37,462 nucleotides of DNA from Lachnospiraceae bacterium (GTDB lineage Bacteria; Bacillota; Clostridia; Lachnospirales; Lachnospiraceae): contig JAAUZL010000024.1 in assembly GCA_014804615.1 (NCBI GenBank), positions 363,064 to 400,525 on the forward strand. Reading direction: 5' to 3'. How positions within the stretch are numbered: the stretch's first letter is position 1; every line of letters begins with the position of its first letter. Below the pieces are notes generated by a model. The model had not been told where the DNA came from. It worked only from the letters and a program-made list of their open reading frames with translations, and made no database searches. The position numbers were made by a program, and so were the translations under genes. Positions 5,347-22,033 of the stretch are shown piece after piece.

Positions 5347-7053
5347 TCACAGCCCCGGTTCTTTTACAATAAACCCATCTGCCAAGCCATCTCCCAAAAA
5401 CGAGATCTCCGCTTTTGCCGGCGAGGACGGAAAGCTGTCATAACCCGCCTGATCTCCCTCAGCCGGATAATAAAACGTAACCCCCTCAATCTCATAAGCA
5501 AGAGTCTCGTAATTCTCATAGTCCTTTTGGGCAAGCCAATAAGCATTCTCATAAGAGCCCACGATCTCACGCCCCAGCGCCAGTCCCTTATACAAAAGAA
5601 GCAAAATCGTCAACACAGACGCCGCACGCTTTATCATGATCCGCCACAATGATCTGTCCGGCTCTGTCTCATCGCTCCGGCCAGCCTCACAGCCCGTCGC
5701 CGTCTCATAAATCCCGCCGCACACCACCGCAAAAGTCAAATACACCCAGACACAGCCATAGCGTATGAGTGGGGACGTACACAGCCAGAAAAGAAAGGAC
5801 GCCGCCACCGTGCCCTGTACCAGCAAAAGCTCCCACCGTCTGTGCCACCATCGAAAAACCATTCCCGCCGCATACAGCAGGAGCAAAAACACGGAAATCA
5901 CCGCCGCGATCACAAACAGTCTGTCGCTGCCCGCAAGCCCCTGAAACCACCCGGGAAGCCACTCTCTCACGGGCATTTCAAAACGTGTCACATCCGTATA
6001 TCCTCTGCCCCATACCTGAATCTCCCTGGCATCATAATCTGCCACACCCTTAGGAATCTTCCAGATCACCGAAAACAGATCAATCTGGGTAAACGGATAG
6101 ACCAACCACCCCGATATCACCACATTGCGGATCAGATAGGGCAGCGCCGTCACGATGCCAAGCCCCAGATATATGCCAATCTCTCTCCACTTTTTCTCCC
6201 GCAGAAGACGATACGCCGGATAGATCACAAGAAGAAGTATCAATGCCGCAGACAGCTTCACCGTCAGGAGGAACACCCCAAGCACACACAGAAGCCCATA
6301 CGGCAAGACTGTCTGCTCCCCACGCTCCAAAAGATCCAGCCATCGTATCACAATATAAAAAGCTATCAGCACCATAAAGTAATCAGATGCCGGAGATATC
6401 ATCTCATCAAAGATATTCACCAGATAATAGACGCACATCACTCTGGCAAAATCACTTGTCCTCAGTCTGCCACGGTGCAGAGAGCGCCCTATTTCCAAAC
6501 AGATCACGGCCAGCAGAAAAGCCAGAAAACCCGCACAGCAGTGAAAGGAACTGCCACCTAAAAAGGCCATACTGTACAGCGCGGACAGAGCAAAAGAGGA
6601 ACTGTTATAAGCCAGCCTGCAGTGCAGATTTCCCAGCCCTTTCACAACGCCATACTCCTCGATCCAGCGAATGCTTTGGGCATGGTAAAGTCCCGTATCA
6701 TAGTGGATCATCCCTCTGGAGGTTCCATAGGCAAAGAGGAGAAACATGCCAACCACCAAAAGAATCCTGCTATCTGTCCGATACGATAGGAACAAAGTTT
6801 TAAGGCTCTTCCTCTCCCGCCACAGAATCCAGGCGCAGACCGCGCACAGCGCTCCATTCGCAAGCAGCCCTACTCCAGCGAACAGACTAAAAAACTGTGC
6901 ATATACCGTGACACATACAATTCCACACAGCACATAGGCATCCCAATTTTTTACCTGATAGGGAAAGTGCCGCGTTATCAAACGCAGCACGCCATACCCG
7001 ATTATAAATGTAGTTATTAAAATATAGATCCAAATCAGAATTACTGATATCAT
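5347..7053 (-). CDS. Polytopic membrane protein, LIC_10190-like, putative envelope polysaccharide enzyme
   Basis: A 568-residue protein with about 11-13 hydrophobic helices and a soluble C-terminal tail. YDTGLYHAQSIRWIEEYG and GLGNLHCRLAYNSSSFALSA (about residues 120-155) resemble a family often annotated LIC_10190 membrane proteins. An aspartate in an early loop recalls GT-C glycosyltransferases. In this place it may be a flippase, a polymerase (Wzy-like) or a lipid-linked-sugar transferase; sequence alone does not decide. It starts 1 bp after the gmd stop with no clear ribosome site of its own, so translational coupling to gmd is likely. No separate Wzx or Wzy is visible in the window. Confidence 0.65.
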   Translation of the reverse strand: MISVILIWIYILITTFIIGYGVLRLITRHFPYQVKNWDAYVLCGIVCVTVYAQFFSLFAGVGLLANGALCAVCAWILWRERKSLKTLFLSYRTDSRILLVVGMFLLFAYGTSRGMIHYDTGLYHAQSIRWIEEYGVVKGLGNLHCRLAYNSSSFALSALYSMAFLGGSSFHCCAGFLAFLLAVICLEIGRSLHRGRLRTSDFARVMCVYYLVNIFDEMISPASDYFMVLIAFYIVIRWLDLLERGEQTVLPYGLLCVLGVFLLTVKLSAALILLLVIYPAYRLLREKKWREIGIYLGLGIVTALPYLIRNVVISGWLVYPFTQIDLFSVIWKIPKGVADYDAREIQVWGRGYTDVTRFEMPVREWLPGWFQGLAGSDRLFVIAAVISVFLLLLYAAGMVFRWWHRRWELLLVQGTVAASFLFWLCTSPLIRYGCVWVYLTFAVVCGGIYETATGCEAGRSDETEPDRSLWRIMIKRAASVLTILLLLYKGLALGREIVGSYENAYWLAQKDYENYETLAYEIEGVTFYYPAEGDQAGYDSFPSSPAKAEISFLGDGLADGFIVKEPGL

Positions 7054-12682: not shown

Positions 12683-12720
12683 AAAAAAATCGGAGAAGTG
12701 CCCATTTTAACACTTCTCCG
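12683..12720 (-). terminator. Original terminator of the tRNA-Glu/tRNA-Cys operon, displaced
   Basis: CGGAGAAGTG (12691-12700) and CACTTCTCCG (12711-12720) form a 10-bp stem followed on the minus strand by ATTTTTTTG. It abuts the att copy that matches the tRNA-Cys 3' end, so before insertion it would have terminated the tRNA transcript. It is now 9.3 kb from that tRNA. Confidence 0.85.
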
Positions 12721-12742
12721 AGAGGCGCAGACCGGATTTGAA
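12721..12742. repeat. Distal att copy (22-bp direct repeat)
   Basis: Identical to 22012-22033, starting AGAGGCGCAGACC; it is the duplicated tRNA-Cys 3' end, followed here by TTAGTCAC instead of the tRNA T-loop sequence. Confidence 0.9.
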
Positions 12743-12800
12743 TTAGTCACGAGCGCCAAAAATACAGTAAAATAGGAGGTTTGAGAGCGTCTTGTCGCGG

Positions 12801-12823
12801 GGTTAACCCCAAGGTTAACCCTG
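12801..12823. repeat. Element-end repeat, possible integrase arm site
   Basis: GGTTAACCCC followed by AAGGTTAACCCTG. A near copy in the same orientation lies at 21928-21949 near the other element end. Confidence 0.6.
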
Positions 12824-12933
12824 TTTTTTATAGTACAAAACAGACTCGCAAGATCATCTGCTTCGAAACGCGCCTATCCTATAAAATTAATTTATCCCAT
12901 GCAGACTATCAACCGTTGATGTATTGAAATCCA

Positions 12934-13932
12934 TTACTCTGCTGTGTCTGTGCCCTTATCCGCCAATCTCTCAGGCACTGTGCCCTCTTTGTTTATGCGG
13001 AAGAATTTTCTTCCCTCAATATAGTTGCTCTCATCAAAAGCATAAAAGATGTCATCTTCAGTGGTTCCAGTTCCCCTAACGGTCTCCGTATCCAATACCC
13101 CATTATATTCATTCATTGGAGTTGCCTCAAACACTAAACCATCATAACCCTCCGACACTTTGAAAATATAGGTTGTATAGCATCTGCCGTCACAATGGGC
13201 ATTTCCGTCATCATCATAAACCCAATCATCCCACTCCCATTGAGTTTCCAGTGTATAAGATAAATCAAAGCTAATCCCATCTATGTCCAGTGTGACACTG
13301 GAATCAAATACATCGTCATCAAATATAGTACGAGTTGGCAACATACGTCCCGTATACCAATCATAAATACTCGAACGCGAGTGAACAGTATCATAAACTA
13401 TATCCTGTGCGGCATCGTAATAAGCCTGCATTGACATGCAAAGTTTTAGATGAATAAGCTGGTATCCATCCTCTTCCGCAGGCTCACTGTAGCATTCAAT
13501 CTGTTCCCTCGTTCCATCTATAACCATCTGGTATTCTTCCGGATTATCATAGTTATAAAGCAAAGTATTCAGCGTACACGCCACAGGAGCATCAGCTACC
13601 TCCGCGCCATGTTCCTCGAAATAACTCTGTTTCGGCTCACCCTCTGTCTTACCACATATCGTACAGACTGCCGCTTCTTTGTAAGTGGCTTCTGTTAAAG
13701 TATGACCTAACGCCACACCCTCGGTCTCACCGCATTTACTACAATGTTTCGCTTCTTCACAGGTTGCTTCCACCCATGTATGTCCTAATGCTTCACCCTC
13801 TGTTTCTCCACCCACGGTGCAAGTTCTTGGCTCTGTGCAGGTCGCATCTACCCATTCATGACTCATATGGCATCCTGCCAGCATTATACCCATAAAAAAG
13901 AGCATTAGGCCACAAAGCAACTTCCTTTTCAT
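12934..13932 (-). CDS. Cys-rich tandem-repeat lipoprotein
   Basis: A 332-residue lipoprotein. The signal peptide MKRKLLCGLMLFFMGIMLAGC ends in a clear lipobox (LAGC, Cys21). Three repeats of about 26 residues follow (25-100), of the type GHTWVEATCEEAKHCSKCGE, common on Lachnospiraceae surface proteins. The CxxC pair is intact in copies 2 and 3 but reads CTVGG in copy 1, and copy 3 has Tyr in place of the first Cys. The acidic C-terminal 230 residues are not recognised. Start follows AAAGGAG by 10 nt; the longer frame to 14076 runs through the RNA terminator and is not coding. It is the only surface-exposed cargo of the element. Confidence 0.8.
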   Translation of the reverse strand: MKRKLLCGLMLFFMGIMLAGCHMSHEWVDATCTEPRTCTVGGETEGEALGHTWVEATCEEAKHCSKCGETEGVALGHTLTEATYKEAAVCTICGKTEGEPKQSYFEEHGAEVADAPVACTLNTLLYNYDNPEEYQMVIDGTREQIECYSEPAEEDGYQLIHLKLCMSMQAYYDAAQDIVYDTVHSRSSIYDWYTGRMLPTRTIFDDDVFDSSVTLDIDGISFDLSYTLETQWEWDDWVYDDDGNAHCDGRCYTTYIFKVSEGYDGLVFEATPMNEYNGVLDTETVRGTGTTEDDIFYAFDESNYIEGRKFFRINKEGTVPERLADKGTDTAE

Positions 13933-13972
13933 TTTCGATAATCTCCTTTTCTTAAGTTTCTCTGGTGCATAG

Positions 13973-14008
13973 AAAAAGACTACGAAATCGTTCCAATTAA
14001 TCGTAGTC
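13973..14008 (-). terminator. Terminator of the structured RNA upstream of the lipoprotein gene
   Basis: GACTACGA (13978-13985) and TCGTAGTC (14001-14008) form an 8-bp stem followed on the minus strand by TTTTTC (13977-13972). It lies 41 bp before the lipoprotein start, so it either ends an independent RNA or acts as an attenuator. Confidence 0.8.
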
Positions 14009-14318
14009 CCTTCAAACTCCGATTTCTCATCAAGAGTACCCCAGCGGCAGATTGCTCCGCCGCCAACGCACTCCAATGAGAAACCCAGAACGAGGTGCTA
14101 AGTATGCGTCCACACTTACACCCCGCTAATATTTCAAACAGGCACAGACCCACTGCTCAAACTGCCACAAAATTATTGCACATTCATTGAAAGTGACCTA
14201 TAATAATTTCGTGTGTATCGCAGACTCAGTCTGTATCGTGTGGTAGCTATGATACCATCCCTTGCCAGACAGGGCGGCAACCCTGTCTGGTGGTACACCG
14301 TTATGTCCTAGATTTCTC
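13973..14318 (-). ncRNA. Structured non-coding RNA of about 345 nt, unidentified
   Basis: A 448-bp gene-free gap has a near-consensus promoter at one end and a terminator at the other. In between are several stems. CCAGACAGGG/CCCTGTCTGG is a perfect 10 bp (14265-14290) and is enclosed by TACCA/TGGTA. AAATTATT/AATAATTT closes a long arm (14170-14209). TTTCTCAT/ATGAGAAA (8 bp, 14023-14083) encloses GAGT/ACTC and GCGGC/GCCGC (14044-14063). No convincing reading frame spans it. It does not look like tmRNA, RNase P, SRP RNA or a c-di-GMP riboswitch. It may be a stand-alone RNA or the leader of the lipoprotein gene. Confidence 0.68.
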
Positions 14319-14324
14319 AGACAC

Positions 14325-14353
14325 ATTGTAGCATATCCGCCAAAACCTGACAA
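14325..14353 (-). promoter_or_regulatory. Promoter of the structured RNA
   Basis: Read on the minus strand: -35 TTGTCA (14348-14353), exactly 17 bp, -10 TACAAT (14325-14330) with extended TGC. This is among the closest sigma-A matches in the window. It lies just after the serine recombinase stop. Confidence 0.78.
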
Positions 14354-14380
14354 GCAAAAATCGGAGGATAGCTCATGCCC

Positions 14381-14950
14381 TCATTTGTTGTCTTCGTAAT
14401 CTCGCACCCTCCGATAAAACGTAGACGGCTTCAGATCTAACTCCCGCATCGCATCCACCCCCTTGACCTCTCCAGATTTCCATCTGCCATACACCTCTGC
14501 AAATTTTTCCCCATCAACAGCAATCGCCTTACGTCCTTTGTACTTTCCGTTCTGTCTGGCGATTTCAATACCCTCTCGCTGGCGGTCAAGGATATACTCC
14601 CTCTCTAACTGCGCAATCGCACCAAAGACTGTCAGCATAAATTTTCCTGATGGTGTGTTAGTATCAATCTGTTCTTTACGAGAGGTGAAATCTACCCCTT
14701 TCTCATTCAGCCGCTCCACGATCTCCAACAGATCTTTTGTATTTCTGGCAATACGCGAAATGGATTCCACCACCACAACATCACCCTCCCGCACATACGC
14801 AAGCATCGCCTCCAACTGCTCCCTGCCGCGCTGTGTTTTACCCGATACTTTTTCAATAAAAACCGTCTCCACGCCCAGCTCTGACATAATGGCCTCCTGA
14901 CGCGCTGTGTTCTGTTCTTCTGTGCTGACTCTCACATACCCTACTTTCAT
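14381..14950 (-). CDS. Small serine recombinase (resolvase/invertase family)
   Basis: A 189-residue recombinase with the full resolvase layout. GYVRVST contains nucleophile Ser9, SRIARN (65-70) has the two catalytic Arg, and AQLEREYI (113-120) is present. A C-terminal helix-turn-helix starts near KYKGRKAIAVDGE and ends TFYRRV. It would cut and rejoin DNA at a res-type site as a tetramer. Start at 14950 follows AGGAGG by 6-7 nt. It lies downstream of a dead paralog in the same orientation. Since integration is done by a tyrosine enzyme, its job may be multimer resolution of the circular form or inversion of a segment; no site was proven. Confidence 0.92.
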   Translation of the reverse strand: MKVGYVRVSTEEQNTARQEAIMSELGVETVFIEKVSGKTQRGREQLEAMLAYVREGDVVVVESISRIARNTKDLLEIVERLNEKGVDFTSRKEQIDTNTPSGKFMLTVFGAIAQLEREYILDRQREGIEIARQNGKYKGRKAIAVDGEKFAEVYGRWKSGEVKGVDAMRELDLKPSTFYRRVRDYEDNK

Positions 14951-15271
14951 ACTGTGCCTCCTAACTCTGCTTGCATTGATCCGCAGGTAAACCAAAATTA
15001 AAGTTGCACAAAGGTTAGAACAGCATCAAACTGTGCCAATAGACCTCTCTCAAATACTGGCACATTCCAAAATACCGCAACTAACCCCTGTGACACAGAA
15101 AAGAGCGGCAGGAAACCGTGCCAGTAGAGGATACCCCAAAGAACCAGCGCAGAAGCGCGTGTCGCGCCCAAACAAGCCCGCAAAAGGAAAGAAGCACTAA
15201 CCTACCTCCCCGCCGCAAAGCGCGCCGTGTGGAGGCGGTACGGATGCTCCCAAAACAGAACAAAATCTTAC
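14951..15271. other. Gene-free stretch upstream of the serine recombinase; possible res region
   Basis: No convincing gene is seen in these 321 bp. GTGCCA(A/G)TAGA occurs in direct orientation near 15034 and 15119, and TGTGCCA/TGGCACA forms a dyad (15033-15039, 15059-15065). Such repeated half-sites directly before a resolvase gene could be its binding subsites; this is weak evidence. Confidence 0.4.
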
Positions 15272-15799
15272 TCAATTCCCTCTTTTTCTTATCCCGTTAT
15301 TGCTGAACACGATGACCAGATCTGTTAGGCTCTCTTTGCAAATTCTATCAATGAGCGCGTACTTGACCTCGTCTTGCAGTTCCAGCGTCTTGATGACATT
15401 CACCAATCCTACCTCTCGCGTCGCAAAATTCTTTAACGTCTCCACAGTGGCCACAGAGAGCGGCTTGATCGATGAGAAATTCAGGTGAGACTCATTTCCC
15501 GATTGAAATTCTAGACCTCGACTGGAAAGAAACTGAAGTTTGCAGAAAAAATCGTATGCACCGCACGCAAAGGAGGATATTGTCGGAACGCAAAGCGCAT
15601 CCCCAGCTACCATCCTGTTGAGCACAGCGTTCATCGCATTCACGCCTACCACATTGCTGTCTGGTACTCCCATTTTCTTCACTACGTGAGACTCGGCATT
15701 CCTGCAGATTACTCCGTATTTTTGCGCTCCTCGCTGGACATTTCTCTGACTCCCCGCCGTCTGATCACTCCTCTTTTGTGTTCCTTTCTTCTGCGACAT
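15272..15799 (-). CDS. Catalytically dead serine-recombinase paralog
   Basis: A 175-residue protein whose middle part can be aligned by eye with the resolvase fold. VLNRMVAGDALCVPTISSFA matches the recombinase stretch MLAYVREGDVVVVESISRIA, and FFCKLQFLSSRGLEFQS matches LLEIVERLNEKGVDFTS. The nucleophile region is CRNAES instead of RVSTEE, and SRIARN is SSFACG, so the Ser and both Arg are gone. The C-terminus has no clear HTH of the usual type. It starts after GGAGG and lies upstream of the active enzyme. It may be an architectural or regulatory subunit of the recombinase; that is inference. Confidence 0.7.
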   Translation of the reverse strand: MSQKKGTQKRSDQTAGSQRNVQRGAQKYGVICRNAESHVVKKMGVPDSNVVGVNAMNAVLNRMVAGDALCVPTISSFACGAYDFFCKLQFLSSRGLEFQSGNESHLNFSSIKPLSVATVETLKNFATREVGLVNVIKTLELQDEVKYALIDRICKESLTDLVIVFSNNGIRKRGN

Positions 15800-16325
15800 A
15801 ATTCACACCTCCAAAATTTTTTATAAAAGATATACCATTCTCTTCAGAAAAGAGGCATGGGATCACTCAATACCAGTCAACGGATTCAAACAAAACAGGA
15901 GGACTCAAAACAGGATGGTCTGTCTTAAAACAGCCAAGCTTTTCTCGTAACACCACTGTCTTTCTACGATCGTTCTCAAACCATCCTTCATTCGTGAAAT
16001 TTTCCATTCCGCAAGACGCTGTAAACAAATTTTTTGCAGTTTTTCTATTTTTCAGTGTTTCGCAAAAGCCCCATAAAACCGCGATTTTGAATCACTGAAA
16101 CTGGTTTTTGCTTATTATTTCACCCCAAAAATAATCAAAAAAATAGGAAAAACCAATCCCTCATAAACAACAATGATAAACATACTCAATGATCCTAGCC
16201 CGCCTCTTTTAACGGTTCGTAAAATATCAGCCCCAGTACAACAGCGTGTTGTAAAAACCGCATTAGGCCATGCTGCGCATCGTCTAACGCGGTTTCACAA
16301 GCTCTGGAACAATTTGCGAAAAAAA
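15800..16325. other. Gene-free stretch with inverted repeats
   Basis: No gene is supported in these 526 bp. It contains a 12-bp imperfect stem (AAACCGCATTAG 16255-16266, CTAACGCGGTTT 16284-16295) and the dyad TACAAC/GTTGTA (16237-16253), just downstream of the GGCT-HTH stop. The rest is AT-rich. It may hold the GGCT-HTH operon terminator and the promoter of the next gene. Confidence 0.4.
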
Positions 16326-16976
16326 TCAGTTTCCCAGCAACAGATGCGGCGGCACTTCCAAGACCTCCGCAATCTTCATGACTGTGTCGGAACGCGCCCT
16401 ATTGATCTTCCTTTCACCACTCTCATACTTTTGGAGGGTCTTACAGGAAACTCCTGCGGCATCCGCAAGCTGTGCCTGAGTCATCCCTCTCTCCCTGCGG
16501 TAAAATTGTAAAGGATTCGGCAGAGCGGCATCTGCATCCGCCACCCTCTGCCATGCCTCATAAAGCTTCTCCTCCTCTAAACCAAAATATTGATATCCTG
16601 ACAGCACTGCCTCGAAGTACCCCTGAGATGGCAGACGTGGTACTGCACGCGGATTCATCACATAGACTAAACCACTGATCCGCCTACCGTCATCCATCAG
16701 GACATCCATGCACTCTCTCGTATAATGAATGGGCTGTCCTTCATATCGGTCAAGCGCCTGCTCATCTCTCCTGCTGATCCGCCAGACTGCCACAGGAACA
16801 GCCTCACCCTCACAGGCTTCGATGGTGGCAAATGCACTCGCACCCAAAGCCCGAAATGCAAGCCTGTAGCCCTCAATGATACCTGTACCGACTGCCTCTG
16901 CATCAGGACAGCGGTATGCCATCTGCCTGATATTTAGATTACTGCCATACGCTACATATAGTGTCTTTTTCATCAT
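16326..16976 (-). CDS. Gamma-glutamylcyclotransferase fused to an XRE helix-turn-helix
   Basis: A 216-residue two-domain protein. Residues 1-130 are an AIG2/GGCT fold: YVAYGSNLN (7-15) is the substrate loop and Glu79 in LDRYEGQPIHY is the expected catalytic acid. Residues 153-216 are a Cro/CI HTH (MTQAQLADAAGVSCKTLQKY then IAEVLEVPPHLLL). GGCT enzymes release 5-oxoproline from gamma-glutamyl amines or peptides. It follows the amidoligase gene by 69 bp and has AAAGGAGG before ATG, so both are one operon. The HTH may make the enzyme its own regulator or tie it to DNA. Confidence 0.85.
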   Translation of the reverse strand: MMKKTLYVAYGSNLNIRQMAYRCPDAEAVGTGIIEGYRLAFRALGASAFATIEACEGEAVPVAVWRISRRDEQALDRYEGQPIHYTRECMDVLMDDGRRISGLVYVMNPRAVPRLPSQGYFEAVLSGYQYFGLEEEKLYEAWQRVADADAALPNPLQFYRRERGMTQAQLADAAGVSCKTLQKYESGERKINRARSDTVMKIAEVLEVPPHLLLGN

Positions 16977-17045
16977 AACTGTCCTCCTTTTGTTATGCTA
17001 TTAATGGGTTAACTGTTTATATACCCCTGACAGGAGAGGATGCGC

Positions 17046-17945
17046 TTACGCGCATCGCCCGTGTCTCCATGCAGAATCACCAGTCAGGTTCTTGATCATA
17101 TGGTGGCGGCAAGTCTTGAATTCATCACCGATCAGGCCAAGCCTTAAAAGCCAGCAACGCATGCAGTACTTCTCGTTATCCGTCACACTCCTGCGGCAAC
17201 TCGCCTTCTTTTGCGTCAGTGCCTGATGACTAAGAGCCAGACAGAACTGAATGTATGCCTTTATCTCCCCAGCGTGTGTCGTGGAATTGAAGAGCCTGAA
17301 TTCTACTGTTCCTTTTGTGAATGTTGCATGAAGATTCAACCCGCGGTATCGGCTTGAATTATAGTGGGCATCTCTCGAACCACTCGTCCCTGCATACCAC
17401 ACATCTGCCAATTCTGCCAGTGTCTGGGGCTTTCGGCGGTTGATTACCCCGATCAGATCCTCGTTGACCTTCTGGCAATATTGCAACCTCTCTGGAGCGA
17501 TCTGGAGTGCCCTATACAGAATATCCTCCTTCTGTGCCATGAGATTTACCAGATTCTTCAAGGTCTGTGGAGTATGGCAACTGGCGTCCACGTGGATATG
17601 AATACCGCAGGACTTATTCACAAACGCACCTGCATGGCGGAGCTGTCTGACCACCTCCTGCAAATCCTCGATATCTGCATAGCTGAGGATCGGGCTGACA
17701 ACTTCTGTGGAATACTCACGCCCAGCCATGCTTTTGCCACCTGATGCTGTCTTCTTCTGGCAGGTGATGGATGCATCGGACATTGCCTTCCATACTCGCC
17801 CCTGACGATCCTTTGCATGATATGCACTGTAACTACCCCCTGCATATGAAGATACTGTGCCAAAATACTTTGCGATCACCTGCGCCGCCCGCTCCCTCGT
17901 GATCCCTGTCATTTCAATTTCGATACCAAACTTTTGTGTTCTCAT
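17046..17945 (-). CDS. Amidoligase (glutamine-synthetase-like COOH-NH2 ligase)
   Basis: A 299-residue protein of the Amidoligase_2 family, which is predicted to form amide bonds with ATP. It has GIEIEMTG (7-14, metal-binding Glu pair), EVVSPIL (81-87), GIHIHVD (114-120) and VEFRLFNST near residue 220, the set seen in the GS-like fold. Length is normal. The start follows AAGGAGG. Families of this type are known to pair with GGCT genes in mobile elements, where the ligase may add glutamyl-like groups and the cyclotransferase remove them. Substrate unknown: protein, peptide, lipid or wall amine are all possible. Confidence 0.88.
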   Translation of the reverse strand: MRTQKFGIEIEMTGITRERAAQVIAKYFGTVSSYAGGSYSAYHAKDRQGRVWKAMSDASITCQKKTASGGKSMAGREYSTEVVSPILSYADIEDLQEVVRQLRHAGAFVNKSCGIHIHVDASCHTPQTLKNLVNLMAQKEDILYRALQIAPERLQYCQKVNEDLIGVINRRKPQTLAELADVWYAGTSGSRDAHYNSSRYRGLNLHATFTKGTVEFRLFNSTTHAGEIKAYIQFCLALSHQALTQKKASCRRSVTDNEKYCMRCWLLRLGLIGDEFKTCRHHMIKNLTGDSAWRHGRCA

Positions 17946-17992
17946 AACCTTTTCCTCCTTAGATCGTACATTTGTTCTCTTCCGGTGTGTCC

Positions 17993-18021
17993 ATGTTACC
18001 TCTACAGGGGGAGTTGTTCAA
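17993..18021 (-). promoter_or_regulatory. Possible promoter of the amidoligase operon
   Basis: On the minus strand TTGAAC (18016-18021), 17 bp, TAACAT (17993-17998). The -10 is weak. It is 48 bp before the start codon. Confidence 0.4.
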
Positions 18022-18050
18022 CTCATTTATGCACTCTAAACTAAACAAAA

Positions 18051-18353
18051 ATGTCTGATAAAATGAATACTGTCTTTGTCAGTTATGCTGCCCATGAGCC
18101 AAACTGCGCAGGCTGTGCAGAGAGACAACTCTGCCAATACGCAGATGGCAGAGGAAAGCTACCCCCAGACACAGAAAAGGATTCTACAAAAATCACGAAA
18201 TACCTGAAGAACAAAACTGGGGAAAAATTATGGCGGTGCCAGCGCACCGCATGGCATCGTTCGAAATGTCTCGCAAAACAGACTGATCCAGTTTTCAGGG
18301 AAAAACAGGAAATAAGTAAAGATAAGAACAAACCTTGGATCATGACTAAATAG
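18051..18353 (+). CDS. Doubtful 100-aa ORF with Cys cluster
   Basis: An open frame with NCAGCAERQLCQY and later WRCQRTAWHRSKC, lysine-rich at the end. There is no ribosome site before either possible ATG, no family is recognised and it stands alone in plus orientation. It may be a chance frame. Confidence 0.22.
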   Translation: MSDKMNTVFVSYAAHEPNCAGCAERQLCQYADGRGKLPPDTEKDSTKITKYLKNKTGEKLWRCQRTAWHRSKCLAKQTDPVFREKQEISKDKNKPWIMTK

Positions 18354-19345
18354 ATGATAATTTTAATAACACATAAAGATATGATAATAAACTAATGCTT
18401 TCAGAGCTGCCGATGATGGACTGCCTCCCGCCCAACCACCCCTGAAGAATACGCTCACTATGTCTGGTACATTCATACTACACAAAACAGAATTTACTCT
18501 CTGCTCAACTTTCGGAGGTGTCGTTTTTTGTGTCTCTATTATATAAATACTATTAATTTGATATAAATGAACTGAAAAAAGATCTCAACAAAATCCATAC
18601 CTCTCCTCAGAATTTACTATATATAAATAGCTTTTCCAATTTGACTGAAATAGCAGGCAGGCCTGTATGCACACGTATGACCACACTCAGGATATAATGG
18701 CACTATGCAAAAAACAAGATATACACACTACTGATGCCCGAATATAGGCCTGTGGAGGCCATGCAACAGATGACAGATCTGGGGAAAATCCGTGTTCGGA
18801 TGTTACAAAATCAGGGTTCTGAAAGCCCCTCCAGATTACAAAATCCTTTTTCTTAATCATTCACAGATTACATATGAGACAAAAGCTGTGAATTTGGCAT
18901 TACAATCTCTAAGCAAAATAACTTCTATCGGACTACACATCCTGCAAAATCGCTTGTCACGAGATTACATCTTCTTCATTTTTACACATCATGAAAATTA
19001 CAAATTTCCTCAAAAATTCTAAAGCACAGAATACACATACGGCACTTCGCATCGAGTCCTATATTACATTTCTCGCTCCATCAGTAATGAAAAAAAATTA
19101 CTCCATAAATCAATTTACGCATTCTATAAAGATTTTTTTTGCACGGGTATGGATTTTCATATCGATGAGTTGATCAAAATTGATCCCGAAAAATCTTTTT
19201 TAGTTGTCAATATACCCCCCTTTTGAGGTGGATATTGCCATTTTGGCTTAGTATTTTTGTTCAAACTGAGTTGGCACTTGATCTCGGCTATATAAACCAT
19301 CTTCCTTTTCAAAAATTGGGGAAGATGGAAAGCGAGGTCATTTAG
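18354..19345. other. 1-kb AT-rich gene-free stretch of the element
   Basis: No supported gene on either strand. There are TATATAAATA-type runs near 18540-18630 and a hairpin with arms CAATAT (19208-19213) and ATATTG (19232-19237) about 110 bp before the methyltransferase start. The size and AT content suit an origin, transfer origin or decayed gene, but nothing specific was identified. Confidence 0.4.
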
Positions 19346-20683
19346 ATGACGAAAAAAACATGCGTAACTCAACAACATCAAGGCACTGCACACCCGCCAA
19401 GGACCCTGAAATTCAGTCGGGCCTTAATTGCCAAAGCCTCGGAGTTTTTCAAGGCACATTCGAAACGTGAACCCAAATCGGACTCCGAAAGCATTTTATA
19501 CGGCCTGCTTGCGTATTCAGGGTGTAGAATCAATGTAATCGAGACACGCAGACAACATATCATACTGATCCCGTCGGCTGAAGAACGCCTCACTCTTCAT
19601 CCCACATCCGTTCGTATCCCCGATGCGCTTTACGCCGATCTGCAAGAAATAGCACTGCAATGTGCAGTTACTGTGCAAGAAATCGCAGCTCTGATTCTCG
19701 TGGATGTTGTCACGCAAAACGATCCACCGCGTCATGCGCTCCGCATTCCCGGAAGTAAGCGAGATCCGCGTATGCAGAAAGCGATCTCCAGCATCCTCAG
19801 CAACTGCAACAATAATCTCGGCGGTCACTACTACGATGCCAGCGTGGAACCCTGCGGCGGTGCTCTTGAAATTCATCAGAATTTTAAGGTGGCTGATGAA
19901 GAGATCATCTGTGACATTGATCCCGAAAAAATCAACCTTTATCAAGTAATTCAAAAGCAACATAAAGCATTCGTATCGTGTGCCCTGTCACATGGAATTG
20001 ATTATCAAACCTTCGAATGTCTTAAAGAAAGAGTCTCCCGTAATAGGGTTGAGAGAGCAGCCAGATATTTTTATCTGTGCCTGAATTCTTCGCGCAATAG
20101 CGGAGAAAAATACAAAGGACTGAAGCTCCGTACATACTTGAACGCTATCGCCGCTACATACATATTGCAAGCTCGTCTGCAAGCGACACGAATCTACAGA
20201 CGAGACATCTTCAAGACACTGAACAGTAGAAACTTACCCGCAGGCAAGACTCTGCTGATCGTTGATCCACCCTACCTCGCGACCCACGCATACGCAGACA
20301 ATCTGACTTATCAGGAGCATGAGAAGCTGGCTAAACGGCTTCTAACTCTGTGCAAAAAAGAGAATCGTGATCTCCTGTACTTTTGCCGTATAACTGACGG
20401 ACATGACAAGCTTGATTCCAATGAACAGGCAATCAAGCTGAAAAATGACCAAATTATGCAGGGACTGATTGACGACCTTTACTTCGGACACGGCTTATAT
20501 TATACGGACGTTTGTCTCGATCATGGGATTATCGAACGCATCATTACGTCTTTCCCCTTCGAGGGCGCAACACAGTATGGTAATGAGAAAGAGCGGCATG
20601 GCAAGGTGCCAGATACCTCGGAGGAATTTGCCGATCCACATCCATGTGCTTCACCATTGGTTGAAATGGGGGTGAACGCATAA
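19346..20683 (+). CDS. D12-class DNA adenine methyltransferase with extra N-terminal domain
   Basis: A 445-residue protein. The C-terminal two thirds carry Dam-like motifs: PGSKRD (135-140), SVEPCGGALE (156-165, the cofactor-binding motif, normally FxEPFxGGG), ICDIDPEKIN (178-187) and the catalytic VDPPY (296-300) followed by THAYADNLTYQEHEKL. This suits N6-adenine methylation by the D12 class. The first 130 residues are not part of standard Dam; SVRIPDALYADLQEIA and the following helix resemble a ribbon-helix-helix-like segment. The first Phe of the cofactor motif and one Gly are changed, so activity needs testing. Start follows GCGAGG. The stop overlaps the integrase start (TAATG). Confidence 0.75.
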   Translation: MTKKTCVTQQHQGTAHPPRTLKFSRALIAKASEFFKAHSKREPKSDSESILYGLLAYSGCRINVIETRRQHIILIPSAEERLTLHPTSVRIPDALYADLQEIALQCAVTVQEIAALILVDVVTQNDPPRHALRIPGSKRDPRMQKAISSILSNCNNNLGGHYYDASVEPCGGALEIHQNFKVADEEIICDIDPEKINLYQVIQKQHKAFVSCALSHGIDYQTFECLKERVSRNRVERAARYFYLCLNSSRNSGEKYKGLKLRTYLNAIAATYILQARLQATRIYRRDIFKTLNSRNLPAGKTLLIVDPPYLATHAYADNLTYQEHEKLAKRLLTLCKKENRDLLYFCRITDGHDKLDSNEQAIKLKNDQIMQGLIDDLYFGHGLYYTDVCLDHGIIERIITSFPFEGATQYGNEKERHGKVPDTSEEFADPHPCASPLVEMGVNA

Positions 20684-21933
20684 TGAAAGTTTATCCCCGT
20701 TATCATAAAACAGCCAGCGAAATAGATCTATTGATATTGCAGGATTGCCTCGATTCTGGTATTGTGTCTCATGATAAGACGCTCGAAAATATTATTATGA
20801 ATCGAAGATCAGAAATTATTAAGAACCACGAAGCAACACGAAGCATCTGGCAGAGTAAAACCACCCTGAAGTGGTGTACTAAACTTGGTGCCGACAAGCA
20901 GTTGGTGGTACGGAAAGAAAGGTGGGACTTAGAAAACGCCATCGTAGAATACTATCTTACAAACGAGAAACTCACCGCCACAGTCGATGATGTATTTCAG
21001 GAGTGGCTCCAATATGAATCAACACATACGGAACACAGTATGAAAACTATCAACGAGTACGAGGGCGAATATAAGCGGTTCCTTGCAGGAACAGAGTTTG
21101 CGTCAACTACTATTCGCTCCGTCACGGAGATGGACATCGTCCGACTCCTGAGATCGATAGTAACAGGGGGTGAGAAAATCCAACGGAAACGTTACGCCGC
21201 AGTAAAGACCATCATTCGTACACTTTTTAACTTCGCGCGAATCCACATGGAAATCGACTGCATAACTGTAACGAATATTCTGGCAGATATACACTTCCCA
21301 GATGCGGCATTCAAGGAAAAAGATAACGATGATGCCAAGCAGGTGTTCAATCACTCAGAAATCAAATTGATAAAAGAGGAGCTGAGAAATACAGACAATC
21401 CTCTGGAACTCGGCATCCTGCTGGCACTCGAAACTGGTCTCAGAGTCGGAGAACTTTGTACTCTCAGGCGCGAATGCATCAAAGACGATTATCTTATAAT
21501 CAGATACTCTCAGCATAAGTACAAACGCGATGGAAAGTTTTACTACTCTGTAGGCGCGCCCAAAAAGGGGAAAGAAAGAACTGTTGTATTAAACTATGAC
21601 GCGAAAAAAATTATACAAAAAATACTCGCACTACACGATAGCGAATGGATTTTCCCAGACGAAGCAGACACTACTCAATGGAGGAAAGCGCATTGCTTCG
21701 ATGGAGCAATTCGCAGAGTATGCAAGCGATTAGGAATTGCTGAACGTTCTATGCACAAACTGAGAAAGACATACGCATCCTATATCCTAACCGAAGAATC
21801 TAAGGTAACGGATAAGCTAGCACAAGGACAGCTAGGACACCGCGATATACAAACAACGCGGAATCATTATTATTATGATATCTACGATAAAGAGGAAAAG
21901 GTGCGCATCCTTGGCAATATTCGGATAGGTTAA
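20683..21933 (+). CDS. Tyrosine site-specific integrase
   Basis: A 416-residue phage-type integrase. The N-terminal part includes an arm-binding and core-binding region (HTEHSMKTINEYEGEYKRFL). The catalytic domain has Arg254 in TGLRVGEL, a Lys near 297 (KKGKERTVVL), H358-x-x-R361 in MHKLRKTYASY, His386 in LGHRDIQTT and the Tyr cluster 396-398. It overlaps the methyltransferase stop by 1 nt, so both proteins are probably made together. It lies beside the tRNA-Cys att site, as expected for the enzyme that inserted the element. Its stop codon is inside the GGTTAACCCC repeat. Confidence 0.95.
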   Translation: MKVYPRYHKTASEIDLLILQDCLDSGIVSHDKTLENIIMNRRSEIIKNHEATRSIWQSKTTLKWCTKLGADKQLVVRKERWDLENAIVEYYLTNEKLTATVDDVFQEWLQYESTHTEHSMKTINEYEGEYKRFLAGTEFASTTIRSVTEMDIVRLLRSIVTGGEKIQRKRYAAVKTIIRTLFNFARIHMEIDCITVTNILADIHFPDAAFKEKDNDDAKQVFNHSEIKLIKEELRNTDNPLELGILLALETGLRVGELCTLRRECIKDDYLIIRYSQHKYKRDGKFYYSVGAPKKGKERTVVLNYDAKKIIQKILALHDSEWIFPDEADTTQWRKAHCFDGAIRRVCKRLGIAERSMHKLRKTYASYILTEESKVTDKLAQGQLGHRDIQTTRNHYYYDIYDKEEKVRILGNIRIG

Positions 21934-21949
21934 CCCCAGTTAACCCCTG
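21928..21949. repeat. Element-end repeat near the integrase stop, possible arm site
   Basis: GGTTAACCCCAGTTAACCCC, matching 12801-12823 at the far end in the same orientation. It overlaps the integrase stop codon. Confidence 0.6.
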
Positions 21950-21961
21950 AAACCAACAAAA

Positions 21962-22001
21962 GGAAAATGGCTCAACCCCACTGTTTACAAGGGGTTGAGC
22001 C
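21962..22001 (-). terminator. Replacement terminator for tRNA-Cys brought by the element
   Basis: GGCTCAACCCC (21969-21979) and GGGGTTGAGCC (21991-22001) form an 11-bp perfect stem; on the minus strand ATTTTCCTTTT follows. It lies 13 bp past the tRNA-Cys 3' end, inside the element. Confidence 0.78.
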
Positions 22002-22011
22002 ACTCAACACA

Positions 22012-22033
22012 AGAGGCGCAGACCGGATTTGAA
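22012..22033. repeat. tRNA-proximal att copy (22-bp direct repeat)
   Basis: Identical to 12721-12742; it covers the tRNA-Cys acceptor 3' strand and part of the T arm. Confidence 0.9.

Follow-up and report, generated by a model that had tools for sequence, protein, structure and literature searches.

The minus strand of a 37,462-nucleotide stretch of DNA from a Lachnospiraceae bacterium (the window, by which we mean the whole stretch analyzed) carries a structured RNA in front of a predicted lipoprotein gene. An earlier note, made from the letters alone, had left this RNA as either a new regulatory leader or a stand-alone RNA of a mobile element. Which of the two is it, and does it stand alone or belong to a family? 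An RNA family, its covarying competing helices and the gene order point to a cis-acting, riboswitch-like 5′ leader with helix P1 as the ON state and OFF as the default, a reading that we consider probable. The leader half of the earlier proposal is thus retained, given covariation, competing helices and an enrichment of secreted-protein genes downstream. The mobile-element half became superfluous, because some homologs (L028, L036 and L040; loci are cited by L numbers) adjoin housekeeping genes, atpC, tsf and tuf among them, which were identified in the translations by eye. What the note had overlooked is the alternative pairing and the existence of the family.

The assignment of the locus to a tRNA-Cys element was borne out: the tRNA-Cys 3′ end occurs as two 23-bp copies with a single mismatch (12720-12742 and 22011-22033; 0 expected) that bound 9.3 kb, and a phage-type integrase adjoins the right copy (Pfam). 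The element also holds a borderline match to a D12-type adenine methyltransferase (21.5 bits against a cut-off of 22). A serine recombinase gene ends 63 nt before the RNA, and a like neighbor at equal distance was seen by eye in L005, L026 and L031. The features of the window are as follows.

12720-22033, no strand: integrative element, 9.3 kb, between the tRNA-Cys 3′-end copies (repeat comparison)
14384-14953, minus: serine recombinase (Resolvase), upstream gene (Pfam)
14325-14353, minus: σ70-type promoter (TTGTCA, 17 nt, TACAAT, TG before the –10; promoter scan, 10/12 matches)
13972-14318, minus: whole leader RNA, about 347 nt (folding, alignment)
14305-14318, minus: P1, 5′ strand (GAGAAATCTAGGAC), pairs with 14076-14091 (strand-swap test, 0/5000)
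14213-14298, minus: core helix P2, enclosing P3, P4 and P5 (46-sequence alignment)
14265-14290, minus: P3, perfect 10-bp hairpin with a hypervariable stem, within P2
14241-14257, minus: P4 hairpin, within P2
14221-14233, minus: P5 hairpin, within P2
14175-14207, minus: P6 region with near-invariant ATTATTATA and ACAA(T/G) segments (alignments)
14092-14124, minus: P8 hairpin (GGGGTGTAAGTGTGGACGCATACTTAGCACCTC), conserved in alignment A1
14076-14091, minus: switch strand, at once P1 3′ strand and anti-P1 5′ strand (strand-swap tests, P1 scan, folding)
14031-14075, minus: P9, variable hairpin stacked on anti-P1 (folding, alignment)
14021-14030, minus: anti-P1, 3′ strand (ATGAGAAATC; strand-swap test, 3/5000)
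14014-14024, minus: antiterminator 5′ strand (AATCGGAGTTT), partner of the terminator 5′ arm (strand-swap test, 0/5000; folding)
13972-14008, minus: intrinsic terminator (GACTACGA...TCGTAGTC, then TTTTTC; folding, strand-swap test)
12937-13932, minus: downstream gene, 332-aa predicted lipoprotein (CxxC/GHxW repeats by eye)

The near-consensus promoter that had been described lies on the minus strand at 14353-14325 and would start the RNA near 14318. By itself, the promoter scan is not significant (5 found versus 3.8 expected in shuffles); a –10-like box a few nucleotides 5′ of P1 is also present in most of the homologs displayed. The leader has a minimum free energy of –149.3 versus –103.1 for shuffles (z = –7.9, 0/100 shuffles equal), in line with the strong stems noted before, and the plus strand of the region also folds well (z = –4.4, 0/100). 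The perfect 10-bp hairpin of the earlier note is P3, and its nested multi-stem domain at 14023-14083 corresponds to the anti-P1 hairpin (14021-14091). The terminator expected about 345 nt after the start is present at 14008-13972 as a hairpin followed by TTTTTC; it is absent from the output of our terminator scan because its loop exceeds 8 nt. As for reading frames, among ORFs of 80 aa or more the lipoprotein frame extends upstream to a TTG at 14076, inside the RNA; the likely start of the lipoprotein, an ATG at 13932, lies outside the RNA, 40 nt past the terminator. The 332-aa lipoprotein has no Pfam match.

The RNA had not been recognized as tmRNA, 6S, RNase P, SRP RNA or a known riboswitch, and an Rfam search had been recommended. 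We compared the window RNA and the RNAs of 16 homologous loci with Rfam 15. No family matched the window RNA at the gathering score or with E up to 10, and neither the RNAs in L053, L086, L087 and L089-L093 nor those in L024, L027, L033, L037, L041, L046, L065 and L096 had a match. Membership at the gathering score was thus found in none of tmRNA, 6S, RNase P, SRP, T-box, the known riboswitch classes and abiF; a T-box reading was dropped for lack of an Rfam match. A CRISPR-DR47 hit in the window is a chance hit outside the RNA, and a mir-960 hit inside the L053 RNA (E = 0.097) falls far below the gathering score. The gathering-score hits in the second set of loci are a tRNA (L041) and a separate Clostridiales-1 RNA (RF01699; L037, 5685-5800), the latter on a 6-kb contig together with one copy of our RNA. 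We met no description of the RNA in the parts of the literature searched, which included PMC11109978, PMC8040213, PMC8632094, PMC2864571 and PMC2965389. The 2017 catalogue of 224 motifs and supplementary files lay outside this search, so that an earlier listing under some name is possible. The class apparently is undescribed, and it has no match in Rfam 15.

Homologs were collected with BLASTN, motif scans and covariance models. BLASTN found matches in 12 of 98 genomes, own genome included. A core-motif scan, which itself selects for P5 and part of P2, returned 45 stretches in a named genome collection, by title mostly Lachnospiraceae, Eubacteriales or other gut metagenome-assembled genomes, with one Clostridium neonatale; a single stretch titled Muribaculaceae (L025) is taken for a mislabelled or contaminated bin. 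The covariance model R1 detected the RNA in 13 of 77 same-genus genomes and in 7 of 392 genomes drawn from the order (own genome included in both), a distribution that is sporadic at either level. With R1, three additional families likewise yielded divergent copies: genome G155 (L087, L089, L090), genomes G848/G808 (L091, L093) and genome G696 (L092). Based on these and a copy from a viral contig (L095), we built a second model, R2. In family f37 it was positive in 16 of 45 genomes, with up to eight hits per genome and 40 in total, one of them partial, but across the phylum in only 3 of 398 genomes. In the plasmid and phage collections, blastn found no match to the window RNA or to one f37 copy. 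Among viral contigs, the Lachnospiraceae motif had 0 matches and the divergent motifs gave the one prophage copy (L095) plus two chance hits, one inside a reading frame (L094) and one in which the other core motifs are absent by eye (L133).

Some copies depart from the standard arrangement. Four lack a clear terminator (L002, L023, L029, L052). In the tandem pairs L018/L023 and L015/L029, a variant RNA with a terminator-like end is followed by a core-only copy without a clear terminator, and these core-only copies precede large secreted proteins with DUF285 and Big_3 domains. Related pieces occur in the window's own genome at C8:339554 and 342160. IS110-type transposases lie near two copies (L087, 1339-1875, by Pfam; the upstream gene of L022, by eye).

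For the alignments, 38 of the 45 stretches were joined by the window, L005 and L010 to give 41 sequences in all. Alignment A1 holds 39 RNAs (L060 and L061 left out), A2 46 cores, and A3 and A4 are chosen subsets of 23 and 7. The homologs in A1-A3 share a common architecture: the conserved core (P2-P6) and the hairpin P8 are enclosed by a long-range helix, P1, in which the 5′ end pairs with a strand located about 213 nt further on. P2 carries a C·A mismatch in most copies, and the stretch between P6 and P8 is poorly conserved, reading CCTTANGATATA in many Lachnospiraceae copies.

The covariation analysis that the earlier note had proposed supports this architecture. In the 46-sequence alignment, 91.2% of core cells are paired versus 77.6% in shuffles and 216 cells are changed on both sides versus 72 (0/500 shuffles in each case), although kinship among the sequences inflates such permutation tests. 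Of five covariation measures, four exceed the shuffles; the exception is the number of further pair types, at 46 versus 49.0, with 465/500 shuffles as high. Double changes affect all 10 pairs of P3, which carries most of them, three of five in P4 and five of six in P6, whose hairpin is intact in only 69.5% of cells. Double changes are absent from P2 and P5, which hardly vary in this alignment, partly because the search motif covers them. We regard the RNA family as real and covarying, with the covariation of the sensor domain residing in P3, P4 and the hairpin of P6. By eye, the AAGG of J3/4 seemed well placed to form a pseudoknot with the CCTT before P8, but the pairing scored –5.61 with own and –5.56 with swapped strands in 38 RNAs (2005/5000 as good). 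Some rows had a wrongly extracted J3/4 and neither strand varies much, so that the pseudoknot is left unsupported rather than refuted.

The strand that follows P8, GTTCTGGGTTTCTCAT in the window and mostly GTTCTTGATTTCTCAC elsewhere, has two partners: the 5′ end of the RNA (P1) or a downstream GTGAGAAATC (anti-P1). This downstream partner shares a few nucleotides, four in the window copy, with the AATCGGAGTTT strand, which pairs with the 5′ arm of the terminator, AACTGCGATT in many copies. We compared the pairing energies of own strands with those of strands exchanged between RNAs in 34 of the 39 A1 RNAs (L010, L040, L045, L057 and L062 left out). On average, own strands paired better in all four helices: P1 (–18.24 own versus –16.03 swapped, 0/5000), anti-P1 (–10.27 versus –9.58, 3/5000), antiterminator (–9.93 versus –8.17, 0/5000) and terminator (–16.76 versus –11.22, 0/5000). 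The search motif covers none of these strands, but the expressions that extract them presuppose their general shape.

The same 34 RNAs were folded in both states, with the fold constraints imposed as penalties. When the leader ends before the terminator 3′ arm, the states differ by 2.9 kcal/mol on average; OFF is the better one in 30 of 34, and of the 34 RNAs 33 have the antiterminator in the ON fold and 14 have it in the OFF fold as well. With the complete leader, OFF is more stable in 33 of 34, by an average of 7.0, and an antiterminator of six or more pairs survives in only three of 34 folds with P1 formed. Because OFF prevails in most truncated and full-length folds, we take it as the default. 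As the full-length terminator usually beats the antiterminator at equilibrium, the ON choice would have to fall during transcription. Exclusivity of the two states is partial, as seen from the short overlap of anti-P1 with the antiterminator and from the truncated OFF folds that contain the latter. Members of the family can adopt two competing folds and are therefore probably on/off switches of the next gene.

We propose the following mechanism. The core would emerge first from RNA polymerase, P2 with P3-P5, then P6 and then P8. A partner, be it a small molecule, an ion, a protein or an RNA, would stabilize it, whereupon P1 could zip both ends together and occupy the switch strand. With P1 formed, AATCGGAGTTT would be free to capture the terminator 5′ arm ahead of the synthesis of the 3′ arm, and transcription would continue into the lipoprotein gene. 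Without the partner, the switch strand would enter anti-P1, the terminator would form and the gene would stay off. Regulation itself, its direction with P1 as ON, the timing of the choice and the existence of a partner are what we infer from the helices and their energies.

Riboswitches are 5′ leaders with a conserved closed core, in which P1 and anti-P1 compete and a terminator or a Shine-Dalgarno sequence is part of the alternative fold. Our RNA resembles those with attenuation or Shine-Dalgarno platforms in its position in the 5′ leader of a same-strand gene, in the closed core with a conserved, covarying sensor domain (P3, P4 and the P6 hairpin, not P2 and P5), in the competition between P1 and anti-P1 and in expression platforms that include a terminator or a Shine-Dalgarno sequence, here with partial exclusivity and a dominant full-length terminator. 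Unlike the known classes, it lacks an Rfam match, its P1 spans about 213 nt in the window copy, and its P3 stem and P4 loop are hypervariable. A functional analogy exists with c-di-GMP riboswitches, one of which precedes cbpA, the gene for a collagen-binding surface protein (PMC7423583). They likewise serve as surface-protein gene leaders in Firmicutes; our RNA differs in that cmscan matched it to none of the Rfam riboswitches.

Elsewhere in the Firmicutes, a ribosome-binding site could be under the control of the same switch strand. In 11 loci where P1 has a different sequence, own strands scored –16.4 and swapped strands –8.3 (0/20000, an optimistic figure because the strands were picked by eye). 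A stricter scan of 13 loci kept the length of the 5′ strand at 22 nt and set each locus against 20 shuffled controls. No control was as good in eight (the window, L065, L046, L089, L091, L092, L127, L130), one of 20 was in L053 and L087, and two of 20 were in L086 and L090; L095 failed, with 7/20 controls as good and its best site elsewhere. The P1 strands of f37 (GGTGGAAATTAAAAAG / CTTTTTAATTTCCCC) are unrelated in sequence, and by eye their CCCC part can pair with the GGGG-rich Shine-Dalgarno sequence of the next ORF, as CCCCTAT...ATAGGGGG in most copies and CCCCT...AGGGG in L127 and L130-L132. Variation among the f37 copies is too low for this pairing to be tested by covariation. In L087 and L111, an AAAGG-type Shine-Dalgarno sequence sits, again by eye, in a hairpin beside the P1 3′ strand. 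Outside Lachnospiraceae, a P1 strand could therefore hide the ribosome-binding site, as read by inspection.

A same-strand ORF was picked downstream in 46 of 48 loci (none in L047 and L060), within 120 nt except in L022 (266 nt) and L048 (185 nt); picking was lenient, with at least three starts wrong and the L048 choice doubtful. By a crude test for a signal peptide or N-terminal helix, 31 of these 46 genes were positive versus 48 of 183 other ORFs of these loci (Fisher p = 3e-7), or 34 after correction of the three mis-picked starts, where the two gene sets had different length and start rules. A Pfam scan of 30 of the 46 proteins found leucine-rich repeat (LRR) families or DUF285 in 14 (LRR in L024, L027, L029, L035, L037, L038, L039, L041, L050, L056, L057, L064 and L086; DUF285 only in L023), a zinc ribbon in four, choline-binding repeats in two, CHAP in two and a sortase in one. 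The downstream genes are diverse and point to no ligand.

The RNA might instead be a stand-alone regulator acting in trans, with a constitutive terminator and a downstream gene served by weak read-through or a promoter of its own. An own promoter and terminator would suit this explanation, as would the predominance of the full-length terminator over the antiterminator in most folds and, by eye, the terminator-like U-run that follows P8 in other lineages. So would the P4 loop, which behaves as expected of a trans-pairing loop in close f37 copies (L091-L129). Among 22 copies with RNA and ORF, no other stretch of 5 nt in the RNA varies as much, the mean being 1.47 bits; of 485 windows only one, taken to be the P4 loop itself, reaches this value. 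The comparison means are 0.87 for nine fourfold-degenerate sites of the next ORF, of which two single sites reach 1.7-1.8, 0.89 for the 120-nt upstream flank and 0.10 for the rest of the core. We nonetheless judge action in trans unlikely: the 3′ third covaries as anti-P1 and antiterminator, which would be pointless in a discrete RNA, secreted-protein genes are enriched downstream, and the alternative helix of f37 holds a Shine-Dalgarno sequence. Complements of the P4 loop in its own locus numbered 20 versus 15.3 in permutations (47/500 as high), which is not significant.

P3 also differs strongly between the close relatives L007 and L008. Either neutral loop drift or diversifying selection for recognition may account for the variability of the P4 loop and P3. 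In the window copy, the P3 loop (TTGCCG), found also in L025, L036, L039 and L042, is the reverse complement of CGGCAA in L005, the closest full-length relative, as if the loop of a palindrome had been turned around.

Outside Lachnospiraceae the genes behind the RNA are of other kinds: the SymE family by Pfam behind L087, L127 and the prophage copy L095 and by eye behind L089, L090 and L111; a receiver domain behind L130 (Pfam), with like proteins behind L131 and L132 (by eye); and a Cas12f1-like TNB domain behind L092 (Pfam). Most f37 copies precede a conserved 55-aa ORF, the one tested having no Pfam match. In L092 (1498-3132), the core RNA is followed by a terminator-like hairpin, a 92-aa frame and the Cas12f1-like/TnpB-like protein, which the RNA might also serve. 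The L095 segment (5521-6126) contains the RNA copy and then the SymE-like ORF, with a serine-recombinase-like ORF about 2 kb on.

Such neighbors, along with the integrative element around the window copy, would fit an RNA that began as the antitoxin or sensor half of mobile addiction or defense modules, with surface-protein leaders as later recruits. The precedent is abiF motif RNA (RCd22, RF03085), which PMC12373285 describes as a prophage-borne leader that carries a terminator, lets transcription read through to the gene behind it and is termed riboswitch-like; its 132-nt transcript with two short motifs neutralizes AbiF through direct binding. Our leader shares with it the terminator of its own, but none of the RNAs that we scanned matched RF03085, nor was an AbiF gene noticed next to them. 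No SymE-like or Cas12f-like hit occurred among the 30 Lachnospiraceae-type downstream proteins scanned, and what most f37 copies precede is the 55-aa ORF, so that we rate this origin as quite improbable. Mobile attenuators, terminator leaders upstream of transposases or unrelated genes that are conserved through recent transposition (PMC2965389), are likewise tied to mobile elements; a decayed or inert attenuator of this sort with a merely insulating terminator would suit the sporadic distribution and the integrative-element setting, but these are terminators only, and the conserved, covarying core and competing helices of our RNA make it a very remote explanation.

A cis-acting leader, the reading we prefer, can be extended further. 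The copies could form a large, unreported Firmicutes switch class in which a single conserved core is coupled to different outputs (antitermination and Shine-Dalgarno release). Recognition would lie in two hypervariable elements, the stem-loop of P3 and the loop of P4, so that each copy answers its own RNA or protein partner rather than one common metabolite. Under such control would stand surface LRR proteins and SymE-like toxins as well as a response regulator and a Cas12f/TnpB-like protein. We put this forward as a speculative and rather doubtful idea.

If the leader reading is correct, the orphan riboswitch-like RNAs would gain a sizeable class whose closed domain is large and which probably has two expression platforms. 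In gut Lachnospiraceae, one signal would then govern many surface proteins (LRR, choline-binding, CHAP). Ligands can be sought directly for orphan classes in which the P1/anti-P1 logic is clear, and such control of surface proteins is therefore testable.
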